Of a DNA stretch of 64,000 bases, positions 41,230-49,677 are shown one piece after another. A program made the position numbers and the translations under genes. The number at the start of each line of letters is the position of its first letter. Within the stretch, counting starts at the first letter, position 1. The notes under the pieces are model-generated. The model worked only from the letters and a program-made list of their open reading frames with translations. It was not told the origin of the DNA and did no database searches. Source of the DNA: Janthinobacterium sp. (GTDB lineage Bacteria; Pseudomonadota; Gammaproteobacteria; Burkholderiales; Burkholderiaceae_D). The stretch lies in NCBI RefSeq assembly GCF_009923995.1, contig NZ_RFSK01000008.1, positions 62,001 to 126,000 on the forward strand, given 5' to 3'.

Positions 41230-41814
41230 ATGCGATACCCAGCCGCCGAGACGGCAGAAAAACACCAGCGCATCCTGCAGGAAGCGGCGCGCCTGTTCCG
41301 CGAACAGGGCTTTGACGGCGTCAGCGTGGGACAGATCATGCAGGCGACGGGACTCACGCACGGCCCTTTCTACAACCACTTCGCCTCGAAGGAAGCGCTG
41401 ATGGCGGCAAGCACCCTGCACGGCTCGGAACATTCACGCGCGGCGCTCGATGCGGCAACCGGCAGCCCGGAAGCCATGCGCCAGTATGTGCGCGATTATA
41501 TGAGCGCGGCCCACCGCGATGCGCCGGGCAACGGCTGCCTGCTGGCGGCACTGGCCGGCGACGCGCGCAAGCAGCCGGCCGTGCGCCCCGCCTTTGGCAT
41601 CCACCTGCAATCGATCATCGGCAAGCTGGCGGCGCATTTCCCGTGGCGGAAAAAACGCAATCCCCGCCAGGACGCCATCGTCATGCTGTCGGCCATGGTG
41701 GGCGCCGTGGCGCTGGCGCGCGCCGTCGATGATGGCGCATTGTCGGACGAGATCCTGGCGGCGGTACAGGCCGCGTATGCGCCTACGCCGCCAGCACCTG
41801 CGCCACCTGCCTGA
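41230..41814 (+). CDS. TetR-family transcriptional regulator
   Basis: 194 residues. N-terminal HTH: KHQRILQEAARLFREQGFDG, VSVGQIMQATGLTHGPFYNHFASKEALM. The C-terminal ligand domain follows the NemR/AcrR-like C_13 layout (GNGCLLAALAGDA). The tail is Pro/Ala-rich. It is divergent from the SDR gene. The last 32 bp overlap the 3' end of the convergent NadR-like gene, so the two transcripts are antisense at their ends. Confidence 0.88.
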   Translation: MRYPAAETAEKHQRILQEAARLFREQGFDGVSVGQIMQATGLTHGPFYNHFASKEALMAASTLHGSEHSRAALDAATGSPEAMRQYVRDYMSAAHRDAPGNGCLLAALAGDARKQPAVRPAFGIHLQSIIGKLAAHFPWRKKRNPRQDAIVMLSAMVGAVALARAVDDGALSDEILAAVQAAYAPTPPAPAPPA

Positions 41815-42814
41815 CCCGCTCGTCCACGGAACCAGCGACATGGACAAAGGCGATCCCTCGCCGCGCCAGCTCCGCCTGGTACCACGCATGCTGGCGCAGC
41901 CGGAAGCTGTCGTCGCGGCGCGTGCCATCCTGGATGAAGGGAAAATCGGGCGCGCACAGCACGACCAGGTCGTAATCATGGCCGGCCAGCTCCAGCAGTG
42001 CCGCTTCCGCCCGGCCAAACATCTCGACGCAGTAAAAATACGTGGTCAACGGCGACGTGTCGCAGAACAGCCAGCGCCGCGCCTGTCCGGCAGCGGCGGC
42101 TTCGCGCTGCAGCTGCTCCCTGCCGATCTTCAGCAGATCGTCATAGGCCAGCACGCCATCCTGGCTTTCCCACAGTTCGCGGCCATACTCGGCCACCCAG
42201 GCCGTGTCGAAATGCCGCGCCAGCGCTTGCGCCAGGGTCGTCTTGCCGCTCGACTCGCCGCCCAGCACGCACACGCGCCTGACGAAACTGGCGCGCACGA
42301 CAGGCGATAACAACGCGCCGTGCGCATGCGGGTCCTGCCGCACCAGCGTGCCAGACACGGGCACCAGTGTCCTGGCCTGGTCCACGCTGACATGCGCCAC
42401 GGCGCCCTGCGCGTAATGCTGCTGCAGCACCCGGGCAAAGCCGGGGCCGTAGTCTTCGCTGCTGAAGACGGCATCGACGGGCAAGTCCAGCACCGTCCAG
42501 CACAGCCAGCCCATGAAGTGGCGATGCAGCTCGCCGTCGTCGTCGTTATGCGGCAAGGTCCGCGCCGGCACGCCGCGCGCCGCGCACAGGGCGGCCAGGC
42601 GCGCGTCGTCGAGCACCACGATGTGCGCCTGCGGAAATTGCGCGCGCAGCCAGCCTTCACGGCGCGCCGGCTCCAGCCCTGGGAATTCCGGTTTCGTGTA
42701 GCTGACCACCAGCAGTTCCCCGCAAGCCTGCGTGGCACGCCGTATCAATAGTTCATGGCCCAGGTGCAGCGGGCAGAATTTGCCCACCACGAGGCCCCTT
42801 TTATACGTGCTCAT
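41783..42814 (-). CDS. NadR-like nucleotidyltransferase/kinase
   Basis: 343 residues in two parts. Residues 1-170 form a nucleotidyltransferase with GKFCPLHLGHELLIRRA (HxGH motif, residues 17-20) and VPVSGTLVRQDP (ISGTxxR-like). From about 180 a P-loop kinase: VCVLGGESSGKTTLAQALAR (185-193) and FCDTSPLTTYFY. This is the NadR layout (NMN adenylyltransferase plus ribosylnicotinamide kinase) without its HTH. It is the last gene of the seven-gene MoxR/VWA operon; its start overlaps the ligase stop as ATGA. Whether it makes NAD or modifies another nucleotide for that system is open. Confidence 0.8.
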   Translation of the reverse strand: MSTYKRGLVVGKFCPLHLGHELLIRRATQACGELLVVSYTKPEFPGLEPARREGWLRAQFPQAHIVVLDDARLAALCAARGVPARTLPHNDDDGELHRHFMGWLCWTVLDLPVDAVFSSEDYGPGFARVLQQHYAQGAVAHVSVDQARTLVPVSGTLVRQDPHAHGALLSPVVRASFVRRVCVLGGESSGKTTLAQALARHFDTAWVAEYGRELWESQDGVLAYDDLLKIGREQLQREAAAAGQARRWLFCDTSPLTTYFYCVEMFGRAEAALLELAGHDYDLVVLCAPDFPFIQDGTRRDDSFRLRQHAWYQAELARRGIAFVHVAGSVDERVRQVAQVLAA

Positions 42815-44178
42815 ACTGCCGCTTCCCGCAAATCCGAAGTGTATTGAATGATCTTGTCTTCCGCCAGCAAGGTCTCGACGGCGACGGCGCCGAAAAACGG
42901 CGCGAGCAAGGCGCGCGCCCGGCCTGCCTGCGGCATGGCGTTCGGCGCCAGACGCAGCGCGATGCTGCCATCCCCATGCTGGTGCACGCCAAACACGGCG
43001 ATGGCCAAAGGCTTCAGGGCGTGCGTGATGTCGATATTATTGATCCACTCGCCCTGCGCCGTGCGGTAACGCAGGGGGCTGCGGCCCGCCAGCCCCACCA
43101 GCACGGGACCATGCGGGCCATGCGCCAGCGATGCGTAGTCGCCCGTGCGATAGCGCACGAGGGGCAGGCAGAAATTGAAACCTCCTGTCACGGTGATTTC
43201 GCCGCGCTCCCCGTCGGGCACGGCCTGGCCGTCGCCATCGAGGATTTCCACGTACAGCCGGTGCTGCAGCAGCACGTGGCCGCCCGCCCGTTCGTCATAC
43301 ACGGCGACGGGCCCCACCTCATTGAGCGAATAGATGTCGAGTACGGGGCAGCCGAAAGCCGCCTCCAGTCGTGCGCGCATGCCGGGCAGGAGCATCATCG
43401 AAACGGACAGCAGCGCGGCCGGCTTGTGCGCCATGGGCAAGGTAAGCAGCTCGGCAAACGAGATGGGATCGCCCGCGATCAGCTCGGGCGCCATGGCGTC
43501 CAGGTAGCGCGCGCGGTCGTCCGGATCGCGCCAGTCGTCCGGATGCAGGTTGATCTTCGCCAGCCCCGACTCGTTCATCGTGGGCGTGACGGAGACATAG
43601 GTGAAGCAGCGGCGCTGGTGCCCCAGCAGCATCACGCCCACCTGCCCCGCGCCATGGCGCAGGGTCACGCCGAAGCGCGCCAGCGCGCGCTTGTGGAAGG
43701 CCAGGTAGCGCCCCGCCACCAGCGGGTGCGAGGCGATCAGCAGCGGATGGCCCGTGGTGCCCGTCGTCTGGAAATTGATCATGCGCGCCAGGTCCGCATC
43801 GTCGGGCACGAAGGCGGCGATGTCATGCGCCAGCTCGGCGCGGCTGACGGGCTGTACGTCCTGCAAGCGCGCTGGCGGCGAACCGCAGGCGCGGTAATGC
43901 GGCACCGTGGCATACGTCGCCTTGAGGAACCCCGGCAGCCAGGCTGGCGGCGCATTGGCACTCCAGCCGATATCCGCCTGCACGACTTCCTGCTCGTAGG
44001 CGCGCAAGGCCGCCACTTCCGCCGCCTGCAGCTTGTTGCCGCTGCGGTTGCGGTAGCGGGGGGCCGCGGGATGGCTGCGCAGGGTTTCCAGCATGCGCGC
44101 GCCCGCCGGCGTCAGGGTGGGACAGTAGTCGCGGTCCGATTCCCACGCGCCGGCGGGCAGGTTGACATCCACGCTCAT
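42811..44178 (-). CDS. Adenylate-forming ligase, PaaK/CapK-like
   Basis: 455 residues. The ATP-binding P-loop reads NFQTTGTTGHPLLI (138-145), followed by DIYSLNEVGPVAVYDE and the C-terminal hinge motif PLVRYRTGDYASL, as in phenylacetate-CoA ligase and CapK-type AMP-forming enzymes. These adenylate a carboxylate before transfer to CoA or another acceptor. No carrier-protein gene is adjacent. Both ends overlap neighbours as ATGA (44175-44178 and 42811-42814), so it belongs firmly to the MoxR/VWA operon, an uncommon setting. Substrate unknown. Confidence 0.8.
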   Translation of the reverse strand: MSVDVNLPAGAWESDRDYCPTLTPAGARMLETLRSHPAAPRYRNRSGNKLQAAEVAALRAYEQEVVQADIGWSANAPPAWLPGFLKATYATVPHYRACGSPPARLQDVQPVSRAELAHDIAAFVPDDADLARMINFQTTGTTGHPLLIASHPLVAGRYLAFHKRALARFGVTLRHGAGQVGVMLLGHQRRCFTYVSVTPTMNESGLAKINLHPDDWRDPDDRARYLDAMAPELIAGDPISFAELLTLPMAHKPAALLSVSMMLLPGMRARLEAAFGCPVLDIYSLNEVGPVAVYDERAGGHVLLQHRLYVEILDGDGQAVPDGERGEITVTGGFNFCLPLVRYRTGDYASLAHGPHGPVLVGLAGRSPLRYRTAQGEWINNIDITHALKPLAIAVFGVHQHGDGSIALRLAPNAMPQAGRARALLAPFFGAVAVETLLAEDKIIQYTSDLREAAV

Positions 44179-44768
44179 TCGCGCGACCACTTGTCGGCCG
44201 ATTCCTCGGCCGCCTTCTTCGCCAGCGCTTCGCGGATTTCCCGCGCGCGCTGCTCGGCCAGCCGGCTCGCTTCGAGCAGGCGGCGGCGCTCCGTGCCGCT
44301 GATGGCGGACAGCCTGTCCGTGGCCTGCGCCACGCTTTCCTGCGCGGGACGGAAACCCAGGCGCGCCAGCACCATGCGGGCCAGCTCCTCGCGCCGCTCG
44401 GGGTCTTGCGTGAACTGGTGGGCCGGCGTGGCAGCGGCCAGCTCGCGCGCCGCCTCGCCCAGCACCTGCAGCAGATCCTGCTGCGCCAGCCGCTGGCCGA
44501 TGAACCACGCGTCGGCCAGCAGCCAGCACGCGATCATGGCCAGCGCCAGGCGGTTGCGGTCCGCCTTCACCTGCGCGCCGATAAACCCCTGCAGGGACGC
44601 GGCCGGCGCGCGGGCACCATGCAGCAGCAGGATGTCGTTGACGAGCGCCGCCACGGACACGGCCTGCGCGTTGGCGACGCCGGCGATGCGGGGCTCGGCG
44701 AGGAATTCGACGGGCGTGTCGGCCAGGCGGTGGGTCAGGGTTTCGAGGTCGGGACCGATTTGCATCAT
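44175..44768 (-). CDS. Hypothetical helical protein in the MoxR/VWA operon
   Basis: 197 residues, soluble, predicted almost entirely helical. The central part (FIGAQVKADRNRLALAMIAC, LLADAWFIGQRLAQQDLLQV) has one moderately hydrophobic helix, and the C-terminal 60 residues are a charged coiled-coil-like segment (SGTERRRLLEASRLAEQRAR and EIREALAKKAAEESADKW). It begins with two Met codons after AAGGA. An 87-bp gap with a REP-like hairpin separates it from the HEIGHH/VWA gene; its stop overlaps the ligase start. No family recognised; possibly an adaptor between ATPase/VWA parts and the enzymes. Confidence 0.7.
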   Translation of the reverse strand: MMQIGPDLETLTHRLADTPVEFLAEPRIAGVANAQAVSVAALVNDILLLHGARAPAASLQGFIGAQVKADRNRLALAMIACWLLADAWFIGQRLAQQDLLQVLGEAARELAAATPAHQFTQDPERREELARMVLARLGFRPAQESVAQATDRLSAISGTERRRLLEASRLAEQRAREIREALAKKAAEESADKWSRE

Positions 44769-44800
44769 GATGTCCTTACCTTAACCCAACGGCAAATACT

Positions 44801-44827
44801 GGGGTCAGACCCGCCGGGTCTGACCCC
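44801..44827. repeat. REP-like hairpin, copy 3
   Basis: GGGGTCAGACCC (44801-44812), loop GCC, GGGTCTGACCCC (44816-44827): a perfect 12-bp stem inside the seven-gene operon, in its only long gap. It may limit transcription or protect the upstream message, separating the ATPase/VWA part from the enzyme part. Confidence 0.75.
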
Positions 44828-44855
44828 GGAATTTTGCTGCGCATATTCATCTTGT

Positions 44856-46637
44856 TTAGCTCTTCACATAGTGCCTGCGGCTGAACGCCCGCGCAAAGTC
44901 CAGCAAATCCTCGTAGCGCTCGACGGCGTGGATATCCCAGCCCTGTTCGCGGCGCGCGCGCTTCAGATCGTCGTAGGTCTGCTGCAGCCACTTGTGGCTG
45001 GCCGCGCCATCCCAGTCGCGCGCCAGGTTCAGGGCCATGGTGCCGCCCGCGCCGCCCTGGGCCAGCGCCTTCGCCGCAATCTCCCAGCCGCTGTTGCCCA
45101 GTTCATCCTGGTCGAACATGGTGGTGATGCCGTCGTCGGAAATCATCAGGATGTGCGCGGGCCGTTCGCGCTTGCCCGCATACGTCTTGCCCAGGCAATG
45201 GATGGGGAAACAGGTGCCGCCGCCAAAAAAGCCCGTCAGCACGCCGAGGATCATGTCCTCGTCACGCACGAAACCGGGCGTCTGCATTACCTCGTTCTTG
45301 CCGCTCCACAGGGTCACCTGCACCTTGGCGCCCGCGCGCAGGGCCGACAAGGCGATGACGGCGCCGGCCAGGGTCAGGAAGGAGGTGTGCGCCTGCGGAT
45401 TCTGCATGGAACCGGAACTGTCCACGTACATGTCCAGGTCGACGGGCACGGCGTCGATGGCGCGCGCCGGCTCGCGGCCATACACGCGGCGCACGGTCGT
45501 CACGCCCGGCACGGGGCGCGGCGACTGCAGCACCGATTGCAGCCAGTCGATGTCTTCCAGCGGGTCGCCGATCTCCCACGCTTCCAGCCCTTCCATCTGC
45601 GGCTCCAGCGACTCGGGCGCGGGGCGGCTGGGAAACGCCACTAGGTGCGGCAAGGCCCGCTCGCGGTAGTAGCGGATGGCGATTTCATGGTCGCTCAGGT
45701 CCACGCCCGACGCCTTCAGGATGTCGCCCAGTTCGAACGGCTCGCGCAGCTGGCCGCCACCGGGCCTGGCCGGCGCATCGCCCTGCGGCTCTTCGCCATC
45801 GAGGCCGGAAATACGCGTATCGTGCACGGGATGGATGGCGCCGTCCGCCTCGTCATCCTCGATCTGCTGCGCGCCATACGTCTGGCAGCCGCGCGCCGCG
45901 TCGCGCGTGTCCTGCAGATAGCGGCTGGGATCAAGGTTGCCACCCAGGGCATCCGTGTCTTCCACCAGGTAAGGCAGCAGCAAGGTGGCGAAGCGGCCCG
46001 CCGCCAGCATCCAGTCGTTCGCATACACGCGAATGAGCCGAGCGCCCAGCCAGGCATCCGTATCGAGCCGCTCGTCGGCCTGCCCTCCTCCCAGGTCTCC
46101 CTTCTCCAGCTGCCACAGGTTTTCATAGATGCGCATGTACAGGGTCCACACGCCGCCGCTGGCCTTCGCCTTGCCATCCGCCGCCCTGCCCTGCTGCAGC
46201 TTGCGGTAGATGTCCGCCATGCGCAGGTTCGCCTGGCGCTGCAGGCGGTCGTTGATGAACAGGTCCGTGTACAGGTTGGCCACCATGGGCGCGTGCTGCT
46301 CCAGGGTGGGCAAGGCGCGGCGCATGCGGGCCAGCAGGCGGAACTGGTCGGTGGCGCTGCCCGGCGCGAGGATGTGGTGGCCGATTTCATGGGCGAGGAT
46401 TTCCAGCGCATAGTCGTCCAGGCCCAGTTCCGTCACCAGCGGCAAGTCGACGACCACGCTCTGGTCCAGCAGCCGGATCATGGCGAAGCTGCCGGACAGG
46501 CCCTGCTTGCCGGCTTCGACGCGGCTGGCGCACAGGCTGGGGTCGCGCAATCGCGTAAACTTGCTCCACACGGCCAGGGCTTCGGGCCAGGCGGCGCGCC
46601 AGGCGTCGATCAGCGCGATGTCGGCATCGTTCTTCAT
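44856..46637 (-). CDS. VWA-domain protein with N-terminal HEIGHH metallopeptidase-like domain
   Basis: 593 residues. Near the N-terminus EILAHEIGHHILAPGS carries a zinc-protease motif (HExxH at 83-87). A middle acidic linker (about 245-300) leads to a VWA domain with the MIDAS motif DMYVDSSGSMQNP (406-410), a MIDAS-type Thr in FFGGGTCFP (475) and MISDDGIT. VWA proteins paired with MoxR ATPases act as metal-dependent binding partners. The fused peptidase is reminiscent of DUF2201-type proteins. ATG 46637 overlaps the previous stop (ATGA). Cytoplasmic: no signal or membrane segment. Confidence 0.82.
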   Translation of the reverse strand: MKNDADIALIDAWRAAWPEALAVWSKFTRLRDPSLCASRVEAGKQGLSGSFAMIRLLDQSVVVDLPLVTELGLDDYALEILAHEIGHHILAPGSATDQFRLLARMRRALPTLEQHAPMVANLYTDLFINDRLQRQANLRMADIYRKLQQGRAADGKAKASGGVWTLYMRIYENLWQLEKGDLGGGQADERLDTDAWLGARLIRVYANDWMLAAGRFATLLLPYLVEDTDALGGNLDPSRYLQDTRDAARGCQTYGAQQIEDDEADGAIHPVHDTRISGLDGEEPQGDAPARPGGGQLREPFELGDILKASGVDLSDHEIAIRYYRERALPHLVAFPSRPAPESLEPQMEGLEAWEIGDPLEDIDWLQSVLQSPRPVPGVTTVRRVYGREPARAIDAVPVDLDMYVDSSGSMQNPQAHTSFLTLAGAVIALSALRAGAKVQVTLWSGKNEVMQTPGFVRDEDMILGVLTGFFGGGTCFPIHCLGKTYAGKRERPAHILMISDDGITTMFDQDELGNSGWEIAAKALAQGGAGGTMALNLARDWDGAASHKWLQQTYDDLKRARREQGWDIHAVERYEDLLDFARAFSRRHYVKS

Positions 46638-47605
46638 GCGAGCGGCAGCAGCCGGATGGCATGCGTCCACGGTGACGTGATGGCCAGGGTATGCGCATTC
46701 GCGACCATGCCGATGTCGCCGGCCGGCAGGTCGAGCGCGATGCTGCGCGCGCCGACGTGCACGGTGGCGCCATCGAGGCGCACGGATGCCGGCACGCCGG
46801 CTTGCGCCAGCTCAAATTCCTGCGCCGTGGCGCCATGCAGCACGGCGCCATAGGCGTCCGCCACCAGCAGATAATGGCGCTCCGCGCTGCGCACGACAAA
46901 GCCGTCCGGCGTGGCGCGCACCTGCGGCGGCGTGCCGAAGTCACCACCGAGGCCAGCGAAGCTGCCGAATTCCCGGCCATCGGCATTGCCGCGCCAGGGA
47001 TTGGCCATGAGCTGCGCATGCACCTGCTGCCACTGCGCGCCCGGCTCGCCAAAGGCGGCCAGCGCCAGCGCGGGCGGCAAGGTGTCGGCGGCGGCCAGCG
47101 CGCCCTGGCGGAAATGTGCCACGCCGGCACGCCAGGCCAGCACCTGGCCCACGGCGCGCAACTGCGCCACGGTGGCGACCTGCGGTGCCAGGGCGGCCAG
47201 CTCGCGCTGCCACTGCGCGGGCCGCGCTGCCGCCACGGCGCCAAGGTGGATGGCGGCGTTGCTGAGCATGCCCAGCACCTCGACGGGCGCCGCCGCCAGC
47301 AGCGGCGCAAACGACGGCGCCAGCTCGCGCCACACGGTATTGAGGAAGGGATTTTTCGCCGCCGGCCCCGCCAGGCCGTGGCCCACCAGTTCCAGGGCCA
47401 TGTCGTAGGCGGCCAGGGTGACGCTGCCCGCGCGCTCGGGCGCAGCGGCGGCCACGGCCGCCACCAGCGGATCGACGCCGTCATGCAGAAAGGCGCCGAA
47501 GGCGGCCATGTCGAGCGCGGGAAAGCGCCGGCGCGCTTCCGCGGCGCGGCCGTTGAACTGGGCACGGCCGCTGGCCAGGATGGCCGCAAAGGCAGGAGAA
47601 ATCAT
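46634..47605 (-). CDS. Hypothetical protein in the MoxR/VWA operon
   Basis: 323 residues, Ala-rich. The first 200 residues look helical. The last 110 look strand-rich, with short repeated beta units (GFVVRSAERHYLLVADAYG, VRLDGATVHVGARSIALDLP, GMVANAHTLAI). There is no signal peptide or known motif. It starts 9 bp after the preceding unknown gene and its stop overlaps the VWA start as ATGA. The position between ATPase and VWA genes is where third components of MoxR/VWA systems are often encoded. I do not recognise the family. Confidence 0.7.
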   Translation of the reverse strand: MISPAFAAILASGRAQFNGRAAEARRRFPALDMAAFGAFLHDGVDPLVAAVAAAAPERAGSVTLAAYDMALELVGHGLAGPAAKNPFLNTVWRELAPSFAPLLAAAPVEVLGMLSNAAIHLGAVAAARPAQWQRELAALAPQVATVAQLRAVGQVLAWRAGVAHFRQGALAAADTLPPALALAAFGEPGAQWQQVHAQLMANPWRGNADGREFGSFAGLGGDFGTPPQVRATPDGFVVRSAERHYLLVADAYGAVLHGATAQEFELAQAGVPASVRLDGATVHVGARSIALDLPAGDIGMVANAHTLAITSPWTHAIRLLPLA

Positions 47606-47614
47606 GGATCCTCC

Positions 47615-48100
47615 TCAATCGCTATGCGAAAAATGCAGCAGATAGCGCTCGTTCCCGGATTCGAACGCGATCTCATCCCAGTGAATCGCATACCAGACAC
47701 CAGGCGGCAAGGTCATCGTCACCGCGTGCATAGTGAATCCCGCCAGCGACATGTCCAGCGCTTCGAGGAAGGCGTTGACGAGGCAGGCGCGAAAACGCTC
47801 CGGCGGCGCCGCCTGCATGTGCTCCGACGAGAAGAACCAGCGCTGGCATGCCTGCTCCAGCTGCGCGCGCCCGCACGGCGCCACCGTGATCTGCCACAGG
47901 GGCGCCGGCAGTGCGCGTGCCGGGGCGCTCGCATGCAAGGCGAAATCCTCGATGCGCAAGCCCAGCGCCGTGGCCAGGTCGGGCGCGTCGGGCAGGCGCT
48001 GCAGCTCATAGCTCGCGCACAGGTCGCTGGCCTCGCTGTTCAACCTGGCCAGCGCGTCGAGAAAGCCCCGGCAGTGATCGATGTTCAGCGCGTCATTCAT
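47615..48100 (-). CDS. Hypothetical protein in the MoxR/VWA operon
   Basis: 161 residues of mixed alpha/beta composition: a helical N-terminus (IDHCRGFLDALARLNSEASD), then strands around LWQITVAPCGRAQLEQAC and a C-terminal TMHAVTMTLPPGVWYAIHWD. The final strand-rich part ends RYLLHFSHSD. No motif or membrane segment. Its ATG (48100) overlaps the MoxR-like ATPase stop as ATGA, so stoichiometric co-translation is likely. Unknown function. Confidence 0.7.
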   Translation of the reverse strand: MNDALNIDHCRGFLDALARLNSEASDLCASYELQRLPDAPDLATALGLRIEDFALHASAPARALPAPLWQITVAPCGRAQLEQACQRWFFSSEHMQAAPPERFRACLVNAFLEALDMSLAGFTMHAVTMTLPPGVWYAIHWDEIAFESGNERYLLHFSHSD

Positions 48101-49677
48101 TGCGAACGCAGCCAGCTGCGGTAATTCGTATAGCGCTGATGCAGATACTTCAATTTCAGCAGGTCGTCGTACAGGGGGCCATACAGCTTGCGCCCCTTCG
48201 TGCGCTCGCCGATCAGCTTTTCGATGCGGTTCAGGCGCGCCAGGGTGTCGCGCTCGCTCACGCCGTCGAGGCCCAGGTCGAATTCCGCGGACAGCACCCC
48301 CACGGGATCGTCGCGGTCCAGGTCCAGGCGGTTGAATTCATCGTTGGACAGGTCGAACAGGCGGCGCAGCCAGCCCAGCCTGTCGCTGCGGTAGGCGGCG
48401 TTTTCCGGCAGCGCGAAGAATGGCGCGTCCGGGTCCGGCTGCAGCTTGTTATGCAGGACGAACGGCAATACCTGGCGCAAGTCGTCCAGCGCCACTTCAC
48501 CATTGCCGCGGAAGTAGGCCATGGCCTTGGCGTAGATCAGCAGCGCCATCAGGGTGCGCACGGAAATGCCGTTGAGGGTCTGGCAACCGAGGTCCTTCAG
48601 GCGATCGCGCCCATTGTCGGCGGCCTGCGCGGCGCCACGATCGGCGCCAGCCAGGCGGGCCGTATCCTTGGTCATGTATTCGAACTGGCCGCCCGCCGTT
48701 TCGAACAGCTCGAACTGGCTGGCGAAAAATTCCAGGCGGCGGCGCACGGCCTCGGGCACGACAACCTGGCGGATATCGTTGCCAATCTGGTCCACTTCTG
48801 CTTCCGTGAAGATGATCTCGGGCGGCACCAGCTCTTCGGGGCGCACATTTTCTTCCACGCGCAGCAGCAGCTCATTTAAAAAGCGGGGGTTGAAGGCCAG
48901 CGCCTGCACCGTCACGTCGACCCGGTCGCGCAGCGCCTCGATCACCTGGTAGGTGCCGCCGCCCTGGTCGTCGTTGGCCGTCAGATACCAGGCCGCTTCC
49001 GGGCACTCGTAGATATGGTTCAGCACTTCCGCGTAGTTGTCGCCCATGACGGTGAGCAGCGCGCTTTGCGTGCGCGTGGGGATGCGGTTGTATTCATCGA
49101 CGATCTTCACGCGCATGCCCAGCCAGGCACGCCAGGCGATGCGGATGTCGTCCATGCTTTGCGCGTTAACCAGGTCCGCCGGCAGCGGGTTGCCCAGCAG
49201 GTCGGCCACCGTCATCTGCGGGTGGCCATGCTGCATGGCGCGCTTGACTTCCTTGACGGTGGAACCGGCCAGCACGCCCATCAACAGGGCGCTGGCCGTC
49301 TTGCCCCGCCCCGGCCCGCCGACGAACAGGCATTTGCGGCGCGTGGCGAAGGTCAGCAGGGGCAGCAGAATGAAGCTGGAATAGCTTTGCGCCGACGGCA
49401 AATTCAGGGTGCGCCGGCTGTCGCCCACGGCATACGTCTGCGACGGGCCGTCGTTGTACTCGATGTCGTAATGGGGGCTGATGATGGCGTGGTTGACGAT
49501 CCAGAAATAGGCCTGGCGCAGCTTTTCATCGAAAGGCCGCGCTTGCGCCTCGCCGTCGCCGCCCAGCGCGATGGGTCCCTGGTACAGGTCCGCCACGTCG
49601 AACCGCCGCGCGGCAGGCGCCGCCTTGGGCTTGGTGGGGGCTTGGGACAGGCGCTGGAACAGGTTAAAAGCGGACAT
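48097..49677 (-). CDS. MoxR-like AAA+ ATPase
   Basis: 526 residues. Walker A VGGPGRGKTAS (120-127), a following HGHPQMTVADLLGNPLP segment, Walker B RVKIVDEYNRIPTRTQ (191-198; Tyr-Asn replaces the usual Ile-Asn), sensor-1 AWYLTANDD and a RDRVDV arginine segment. A long C-terminal extension of about 240 residues has no known domain. MoxR ATPases work with VWA proteins as chaperones or in conflict systems. I use ATG 49677; a longer frame to 49737 reads into the repeat. First gene of the operon; no strong Shine-Dalgarno, and the leader is repeat copy B. Confidence 0.85.
   Translation of the reverse strand: MSAFNLFQRLSQAPTKPKAAPAARRFDVADLYQGPIALGGDGEAQARPFDEKLRQAYFWIVNHAIISPHYDIEYNDGPSQTYAVGDSRRTLNLPSAQSYSSFILLPLLTFATRRKCLFVGGPGRGKTASALLMGVLAGSTVKEVKRAMQHGHPQMTVADLLGNPLPADLVNAQSMDDIRIAWRAWLGMRVKIVDEYNRIPTRTQSALLTVMGDNYAEVLNHIYECPEAAWYLTANDDQGGGTYQVIEALRDRVDVTVQALAFNPRFLNELLLRVEENVRPEELVPPEIIFTEAEVDQIGNDIRQVVVPEAVRRRLEFFASQFELFETAGGQFEYMTKDTARLAGADRGAAQAADNGRDRLKDLGCQTLNGISVRTLMALLIYAKAMAYFRGNGEVALDDLRQVLPFVLHNKLQPDPDAPFFALPENAAYRSDRLGWLRRLFDLSNDEFNRLDLDRDDPVGVLSAEFDLGLDGVSERDTLARLNRIEKLIGERTKGRKLYGPLYDDLLKLKYLHQRYTNYRSWLRSQ

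Follow-up and report, generated by a model that had tools for sequence, protein, structure and literature searches.

A MoxR-type AAA+ ATPase and a HEIGHH/VWA protein linked to a PaaK-like ligase and a NadR-like enzyme in Janthinobacterium and in distant bacteria

A window of 64,000 nucleotides (nt) from Janthinobacterium sp. (GCF_009923995.1, contig NZ_RFSK01000008.1, positions 62,001 to 126,000), which is the whole stretch of DNA analysed here, carries at 41783-49677 seven minus-strand genes joining a MoxR-type AAA+ ATPase and a protein with a HEIGHH motif and a VWA domain to a PaaK-like ligase, a NadR-like enzyme and three further proteins (g2, g3 and g5). An earlier note, made from the sequence alone, had described these genes, and all of its open reading frames were present. 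The observation is confirmed as real, and the linkage of six of the genes is confirmed to be stronger and wider than first claimed, since they recur together over several phyla. The small protein g5 ends in an acidic residue in every copy counted, and this invariant acidic tail is a new observation. We propose that the locus may be a chromosomal ATP-driven remodelling system with the g5-ligase pair as its client and the g5 tail bound at the metal ion-dependent adhesion site (MIDAS) of the VWA domain, a plausible model that we hold tentatively. The features of the locus are (lengths in amino acids, aa; full-flank loci are defined in the next section):

48097-49677, minus strand: g1, MoxR-type AAA+ ATPase, 526 aa (Pfam AAA_3, AAA_lid_2)
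47615-48100, minus strand: g2, accessory protein, 161 aa (DUF6455-like, weak match, E 0.0056, below cut-off)
46634-47605, minus strand: g3, constant third component, 323 aa (predicted structure; 58 of 59 full-flank loci)
44856-46637, minus strand: g4, HEIGHH (zincin-like motif) N-terminal region and C-terminal VWA domain with complete MIDAS, 593 aa
44794-44834, no strand: dispersed palindrome in the VWA-g5 gap, 41 nt with 20-nt arms, 90% complementary
44175-44768, minus strand: g5, helix-rich by sequence, 197 aa, ending Arg-Glu-COOH (proposed ligase adaptor and MIDAS ligand)
42811-44178, minus strand: g6, PaaK-like adenylate-forming ligase, 455 aa (NF045666, TIGR02155, PDB PaaK 2y27)
41783-42814, minus strand: g7, NadR-like nicotinamide mononucleotide (NMN) adenylyltransferase and ribosylnicotinamide kinase, 343 aa (TIGR01526, AAA_28)

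Conservation of the gene set

Relatives of the locus were collected with a VWA-profile scan of a species-genome collection, which used two short VWA peptides and so favours relatives that keep them, and of whose 140 relatives the best 80 were retained; because of these settings distant variants were missed and the conservation given below is overstated. Nine families were mapped by profile on the 80 loci and on eight further loci. In 59 of the 80 loci the VWA frame is flanked by over 9 kb on its upstream and over 8.5 kb on its downstream side; these are called full-flank loci, and the other 21 were left out of the corresponding counts. Janthinobacterium, which also supplied the closest named records of the scan, accounts for 18 of the 80 loci and for 15 of the full-flank ones, the other 44 belonging to other genera. 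Alignments A2-A7 were made from hand-picked, less redundant subsets (51, 50, 46, 32, 31 and 23 rows).

The AAA+, g3, g5 and ligase genes were each found in 58 of the full-flank loci, NadR or its NMN adenylyltransferase (NMNAT) half in 53, the transporter gene pnuC in 25, a radical S-adenosylmethionine (SAM) enzyme gene in 20 and g2 in 12. Over all 80 loci, wherever the contigs end, the counts were 75 for AAA+, 79 for g3, 77 for g5, 76 for the ligase, 68 for NadR, 32 for PnuC, 28 for radical SAM and 14 for g2. The accessory gene g2 was found only in Janthinobacterium loci (12 of 15 full-flank loci there, none of 44 elsewhere); the other six window genes were jointly present in 52 of 59 full-flank loci, and in 45 they occurred exactly once in the same order and on the same strand. 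The ligase and the NadR gene are thus not chance neighbours of the ATPase and VWA genes, their linkage being far from sporadic. By record titles the core is carried by Proteobacteria, Verrucomicrobia, Chloroflexi, KSB1, Acidobacteria and Actinobacteria, although some records are metagenome-assembled genomes (MAGs) that may carry a wrong taxonomic label, above all L042 and L045, which are filed as Acidobacteria (70-72% identity). The co-occurrence across distant taxa that the earlier note had asked about was therefore found, and the gene set is far from chance because it recurs across phyla. No conserved neighbour beyond the nine families was found in the loci from L042 onward, two Janthinobacterium loci excluded, where recurrent flank groups were lineage-local or common.

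The 14 full-flank loci that depart from the standard arrangement include four with a radical-SAM gene and with NadR not within range (L042, L063, L085 and L087). NadR is also missing from the full-flank locus L100, and L092 and L103, described below, are two more of the 14. In three Chloroflexi loci (L094, L096 and L101) and in the Acidobacteria MAG L098 the g5-ligase pair is duplicated in tandem around a radical-SAM gene, so g5 and the ligase behave as a unit; in L096, L098 and L101 PnuC and NadR also follow downstream of the tandem copies. PnuC-NadR lies upstream in L059, and in L095 PnuC and the radical-SAM gene are inverted nearby, NadR still being present in both. The VWA protein is split over two frames in L052, and L074 was scored out of order solely from a long g3 frame, its matches standing in the usual order. 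An extra gene was also noticed between g3 and VWA in an Anaerolineales locus (L101:8607-9950), which by eye resembles an FAD-dependent oxidoreductase.

The linkage also holds at the level of genomes. The VWA protein, g5 and the full-length ligase were found in an identical set of 14 of the 145 family genomes, in which the ligase scored 670-741 bits, and the next-best ligase match in the 145 scored 88.5 bits. Among 274 class genomes, 3 have full-length VWA, and it is these that have g5; three further genomes matched the HEIGHH region alone (E 7.1e-6 to 9.9e-5). Full-length radical SAM was found in one of the 145 family genomes, which bears the operon, and two others matched at 88-89 bits. All 8 same-genus genomes of the family sample carry the operon.

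In the window five of the six junctions are tight, as first noted, with ATGA overlaps at AAA/g2, g3/VWA, g5/ligase and ligase/NadR and a 9-bp gap between g2 and g3. The sixth, between VWA and g5, is an 87-bp gap which contains the 41-nt near-perfect palindrome GGGGTCAGACCCG..CGGGTCTGACCCC. Since its exact core occurs at 18 places of the genome (17 matches in forward and 17 in reverse orientation) and a control pattern at 0, the palindrome belongs to a dispersed repeat family. Scans of the locus for promoters (0 promoter-like sites, 1.1 expected) and terminators (5 terminator-like sites, 4.6 expected) were uninformative.

The AAA+/VWA machine and its proposed client

The domain calls of the earlier note were borne out at graded strength: the AAA+ domains scored above cut-off, the VWA match was weak, and the ligase and NadR were recognisable below their equivalog cut-offs. 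The ATPase matched Pfam AAA_3 with 32.1 bits (cut-off 27) and AAA_lid_2 with 30.3 (cut-off 22.7), its Walker A, Walker B and sensor 1 motifs are present in 32 of 32 aligned relatives, and its pairwise identity averages 75% over 45 loci (minimum 64%). In g4, Pfam VWA_2 matched weakly (E 0.0097, below cut-off), and the MIDAS residues D406, S408, S410, T475 and D501 are each invariant in 46 of 46 VWA proteins. The structure model of g4 (predicted local distance difference test, pLDDT, 88) gave three Foldseek matches in PDB with E below 0.001, all of them chain G of NorQD entries (9qhe, E 2.0e-5; 9qhd; 9qhg), which we take to be NorD; for 9qhe_G the template modelling (TM) score was 0.50 on the target and 0.24 on the query. 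Profile searches of PDB with VWA or g3 gave no relative at E up to 1. Structure prediction, which the earlier note had proposed for its unknown proteins, gave for g3 an AlphaFold2 model with pLDDT 97.1, helical in the N-terminal part (about 1-205) and beta in the C-terminal part (about 206-323), which had no significant fold match (best Foldseek E 0.43 in PDB and 0.25 in BFVD); the weak matches (E 0.7-5) include the propellers paraoxonase, Nup133 and Rack1. No NCBIfam match was found for 51 g3 members, and the window proteins g2, g3 and g5 had no Pfam or NCBIfam match above cut-off. Homology lends good support to AAA+/VWA remodelling as the predicted mechanism class.

As in NorQD, the machine that inserts iron into nitric oxide reductase and that gave the best Foldseek matches, a MoxR-type AAA+ ATPase stands beside a VWA protein whose N-terminal region is large and whose MIDAS is complete. 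The window set differs from NorQD in its HEIGHH region, its constant g3 and its links to the ligase, g5 and the NAD (nicotinamide adenine dinucleotide) module, and its ATPase has 526 aa against the 30 kDa of NorQ (PMC9976466). Newer NorQD structures exist (PMC13036017). Neither NorB nor NorC, the families of the nitric oxide reductase client of NorQD, was found among the seven genes and the eight flanking genes scanned in the window. The CbbQO rubisco activase is likewise an AAA+/VWA pair whose MIDAS binds an acidic residue of the enzyme that it acts on (PMC4660213), the mode proposed here, although the client proposed here is a PaaK-like ligase with a separate adaptor and not rubisco.

In the proposed model the AAA+ ring would work with the HEIGHH/VWA protein and g3 in the fashion of NorQD and CbbQO, and its client would be the PaaK-like ligase together with the small adaptor g5. 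With its free, acidic end (Arg-Glu-COOH), g5 would dock in the metal site of the VWA MIDAS, and ATP hydrolysis would remodel the g5-ligase complex by assembly, activation or the clearing of an inhibited state. PnuC-NadR would feed NAD made from nicotinamide riboside into the same pathway, and a SPASM-like radical-SAM enzyme, where present, would add a further step. We infer the docking of the tail, the role of the ligase as client and the supply of NAD by NadR. With a complete VWA MIDAS and a NorQD-like fold match, the acidic end of g5 would be a natural MIDAS ligand, and the g5-ligase pair is proposed as client because its two genes are often coupled at the ligase start and are duplicated together. 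Precedents for acidic ligands are rubisco Asp82 or Glu75, implicated at the MIDAS of CbbQO (PMC4660213), and NorB D220/E222, the candidate ligands in NorQD (PMC9976466).

The tail itself was counted on copies of g5 that score at least 100 bits and have a stop codon, no locus giving more than two, and the g5 of L102 (69 bits) was excluded. These copies number 80 and come from 76 loci; 79 of them end in Glu and one in Asp, so that the single exception keeps an acidic end (RD), and the penultimate residue is Arg in 80 of 80; the copies are not independent, since 18 of the 80 loci are Janthinobacterium. The last residues of the seven other families (AAA+, g3, VWA, radical SAM, ligase, PnuC and NadR) are variable. 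In 41 of 80 copies the g5 stop and the ligase start share an ATGA. We considered that the Arg-Glu tail might be a by-product of these overlapping frames and rejected it, because RE is still the ending of all 16 copies that stop with TAA or TAG, where the overlap cannot dictate the codon. Selection thus appears to act on the free Arg-Glu C-terminus of g5.

No ligase gene without a g5 gene was found among the 80 loci. Also in favour of the model, pairwise distances between the genes correlate at 0.68-0.89 (NadR against the core, r 0.80, reached in 0 of 2000 permutations), with no control for shared species history. The ligase shares with the PaaK/DVU_1553-type AMP-forming enzymes an ANL core (the superfamily of acyl-CoA synthetases, adenylation domains and luciferases) with A5, A7, A8 and C-terminal lysine patterns, and these are its closest relatives (NF045666, E 9.8e-23; PaaK TIGR02155, E 2.6e-12; PDB PaaK 2y27, E 2.2e-9). 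It differs from them in standing, throughout the 80 loci, with g5 and in scoring below every equivalog cut-off, with 46 bits against the 646 of TIGR02155, and it was just below cut-off for Pfam AMP-binding (28.6 against 29.9).

Several observations weigh against the remodelling model. The strict ligase patterns are not universal, being present in 17 (P-loop), 28 (A5), 25 (A7), 27 (A8) and 26 (C-terminal lysine) of 31 sequences; the exceptions are mostly conservative variants by eye, and L100 is without the lysine. In Chloroflexi, one locus (L092) has AAA-g3-VWA but neither g5 nor ligase nor NadR, so this machine may serve other clients, and L103 has VWA-g5-ligase without AAA+ and g3. NadR is separable from VWA, since six more family genomes have it without a VWA gene. 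The HEIGHH motif would be superfluous for pure remodelling and hints at proteolysis, the processing of structural proteins having been proposed for the MoxR partner of jumbo phages, an N-terminal metallopeptidase fused to vWA (PMC7824862). The invariant C-terminal Glu of g5 could also be a site of covalent attachment. Because of the HEIGHH region and the radical-SAM enzyme, a protease and a carrier-protein reading stay alive, and these are the main rivals to the remodelling model.

The first of them is an AAA+-driven regulated protease, in which the HEIGHH/VWA protein would cleave a substrate delivered to it at the cost of ATP, possibly g5 or the ligase, and would thereby control an NAD-linked metabolic enzyme. 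The residues H83, E84, H87, H88, D125 and N129 are invariant in 46 of 46 proteins, residues 78-140 match a phage metallo-protease family weakly (E 0.0071), and the three class genomes with proteins that match the HEIGHH region alone also point this way. Pairs of MoxR and a vWA protein with an N-terminal metallopeptidase are known from group 2.2 jumbo phages, so that this domain plan is already in print; there they are proposed to act in virion assembly and processing (PMC7824862). Searches of 50,697 phage records with tblastn gave no match to the VWA (E up to 1), AAA+ (E up to 0.01) or g5 protein of the window, though a distant relation to the phage proteins, by profile or fold, may exist. No Pfam peptidase match was found in the 46 HEIGHH/VWA members at E up to 0.1, none of the 50 PDB fold matches listed for g4, mostly VWA or I-domain proteins, is named a zincin, and the third metal ligand is putative. 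We regard this protease as unlikely.

The second is carrier-protein biosynthesis, in which the C-terminal Glu of g5 would be activated and loaded, the radical-SAM enzyme would modify the tethered group, the AAA+-driven HEIGHH region would release it, and PnuC-NadR would give a nucleotide precursor or NAD. The Glu is conserved in 79 of 80 copies, the adenylate-forming ligase is encoded directly after g5, often with the ATGA overlap, all 23 aligned radical-SAM sequences have CxxxCxxC, GGEP and, at the C-terminus, CxDC, and HE[IV]GHH is kept in 46 of 46 VWA proteins. Two precedents act through a C-terminal residue, the amino-group carrier LysW through the gamma-carboxyl of its C-terminal Glu (PMC10433800) and the pearlin carriers, which are loaded at the C-terminus and released by a protease (PMC9303977). 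However, the radical-SAM gene is missing from 24 of 44 non-Janthinobacterium and all 15 Janthinobacterium full-flank loci, one g5 ends in Asp, and for the first of 23 radical-SAM members the best 25 of 50 NCBIfam matches were all below cut-off. ANL ligases usually activate small carboxylates and not protein tails, which also weighs against the carrier reading. We consider it doubtful, to the same degree as the protease. A fuller version, a new pathway in which the Glu of g5 would serve as covalent scaffold, be loaded by the PaaK-like ligase, optionally modified by radical SAM and freed by an AAA+-driven VWA metallopeptidase to give a nicotinamide- or NAD-linked metabolite with its nucleotide part supplied through PnuC-NadR, seems more doubtful still.

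The NadR module and the radical-SAM enzyme

The window NadR matched TIGR01526 at E 5.7e-49 (167 bits, equivalog cut-off 341), AAA_28 at E 6.2e-36 and PDB NadR 9x6f at E 9.5e-31. As in PnuC-NadR riboside salvage, the NadR motifs are intact, with GKFxPxHxGH of the NMNAT in 67 of 68 sequences and the kinase Walker A in 63 of 68, PnuC stands beside NadR in many loci, and free-standing relatives lie near NAD-salvage genes. The operon differs from such salvage in that NadR is built into an AAA/VWA/ligase set and is reduced in four Chloroflexi loci to the NMNAT half, the kinase half being gone. PnuC occurs in 25 of 44 full-flank loci outside Janthinobacterium and in 0 of 15 inside, and the radical-SAM gene in 20 of 44 and 0 of 15, respectively; over the loci PnuC lies mostly between ligase and NadR and the radical-SAM gene mostly between VWA and g5. 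Their family assignments were made on single members, with Pfam Radical_SAM E values of 1.3e-11 in L043 and 9.4e-13 in L096 (two tested) and a Pfam NMN_transporter E value of 4.9e-46 for the L068 PnuC (one tested). The larger set with radical SAM and PnuC, which had escaped the earlier note, may be the ancestral one.

In the family genomes, two-domain NadR was found in the 14 operon carriers and in six genomes without VWA (G038, G094, G111, G138, G029 and, weakly, G067), of which the first five were inspected at loci L118 to L122. PnuC-NadR stands without core genes in L120, L121 and L122 (G111, G138 and G029), and NadR without PnuC in L119 (G094). Near the L120 pair, NCBIfam gave NAD synthase and nicotinate phosphoribosyltransferase above cut-off and NMNAT/Nudix below it; near the L122 pair, nicotinate phosphoribosyltransferase and NMNAT/Nudix were above cut-off and a TonB-type receptor below. 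In G038 (L118:2504-4349), PnuC-NadR lies beside a short C-terminal ligase remnant, with nothing more of the operon at the site, which suggests that this genome lost the operon and kept the NAD module. Because members of the same PnuC-NadR clade occur by themselves next to NAD-salvage genes, NadR looks like a NAD-supply module rather than the modifier triggered by sensing that the earlier note had suggested.

The window genome has an operon-type PnuC on another contig (L113:6972-10505), near a TonB-type receptor, with 52-66% identity to five of six operon PnuCs and 31% to the Chloroflexi one; this neighbourhood hints at the outer-membrane uptake of a nicotinamide compound. A separate PnuC and a ribosylnicotinamide-kinase-like gene lie near another TonB-type receptor, so that ordinary riboside salvage seems to be encoded elsewhere in this genome and the operon NadR to be an extra copy. 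No close radical-SAM relative was found in the window genome (best 35.5 bits). The separate PnuC-NadR pairs, the NadR that persists beside the ligase remnant and the PnuC on another contig would also fit an alternative in which AAA-g3-VWA-g5-ligase on the one hand and PnuC-NadR on the other are unrelated modules that simply accompany each other. Nearly all full-flank loci, including the rearranged L059 and L095, nevertheless keep at least the NMNAT half of NadR, and we judge this alternative quite unlikely, on a level with the scaffold pathway above; under the remodelling model NadR would serve the same pathway as the ligase.

Comparison with conflict systems and significance

The earlier note had placed the locus among MoxR-VWA systems with a third component. 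Its layout fits, as g3 is constant, and resembles the plan of the MoxR-vWA ternary conflict systems, with MoxR, VWA and a third conserved protein (Kaur et al. 2020, PMC7159879); the conflict role itself found no support. By sequence family and fold, g3 could be matched to none of the third components named in that paper (VMAP, iSTAND, FtsH and beta-propeller), its weak fold matches including several propellers, and in that text 'NadR' does not occur and radical SAM is mentioned once, with FtsH systems. A patchy distribution, in 14 of 145 family genomes and at full length in 3 of 274 class genomes, is the other point in favour of defence. On the other side, VWA and g5 had no match in 72,556 plasmid records, IMG/VR gave no confirmed viral relative of either, and the sole PADLOC match was a weak one of NadR (E 0.03), which in PHROGs has phage relatives in the NMN adenylyltransferase family phrog_3462 (E 2.1e-55). 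The operon is also highly conserved, as seen in the AAA+ protein, and present in every same-genus genome sampled; the eight flanking window proteins belong by Pfam scan to efflux, regulatory and metabolic families, and among the 18 named Janthinobacterium loci 17 share the upstream efflux gene and 16 the downstream gene of Cys/Met metabolism. Searches of PADLOC, PHROGs, plasmids, phage records and viral contigs gave no support to a defence role, and we consider it very improbable.

No description of this gene combination was found in the titles or the beginnings of abstracts of the open-access (PMC) papers that literature searches listed. The window g3, g5 and HEIGHH/VWA proteins fall outside the Pfam and NCBIfam families at their cut-offs, and the ligase lies under every named equivalog cut-off. 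With this locus the MoxR/VWA machines gain a type that is widely scattered, has a third partner of its own and probably serves a dedicated enzyme client, and the invariant acidic tail of g5 offers a precise handle on how such machines recognise their clients. If NadR supplies the pathway, the locus would join ATP-driven protein remodelling to NAD salvage.

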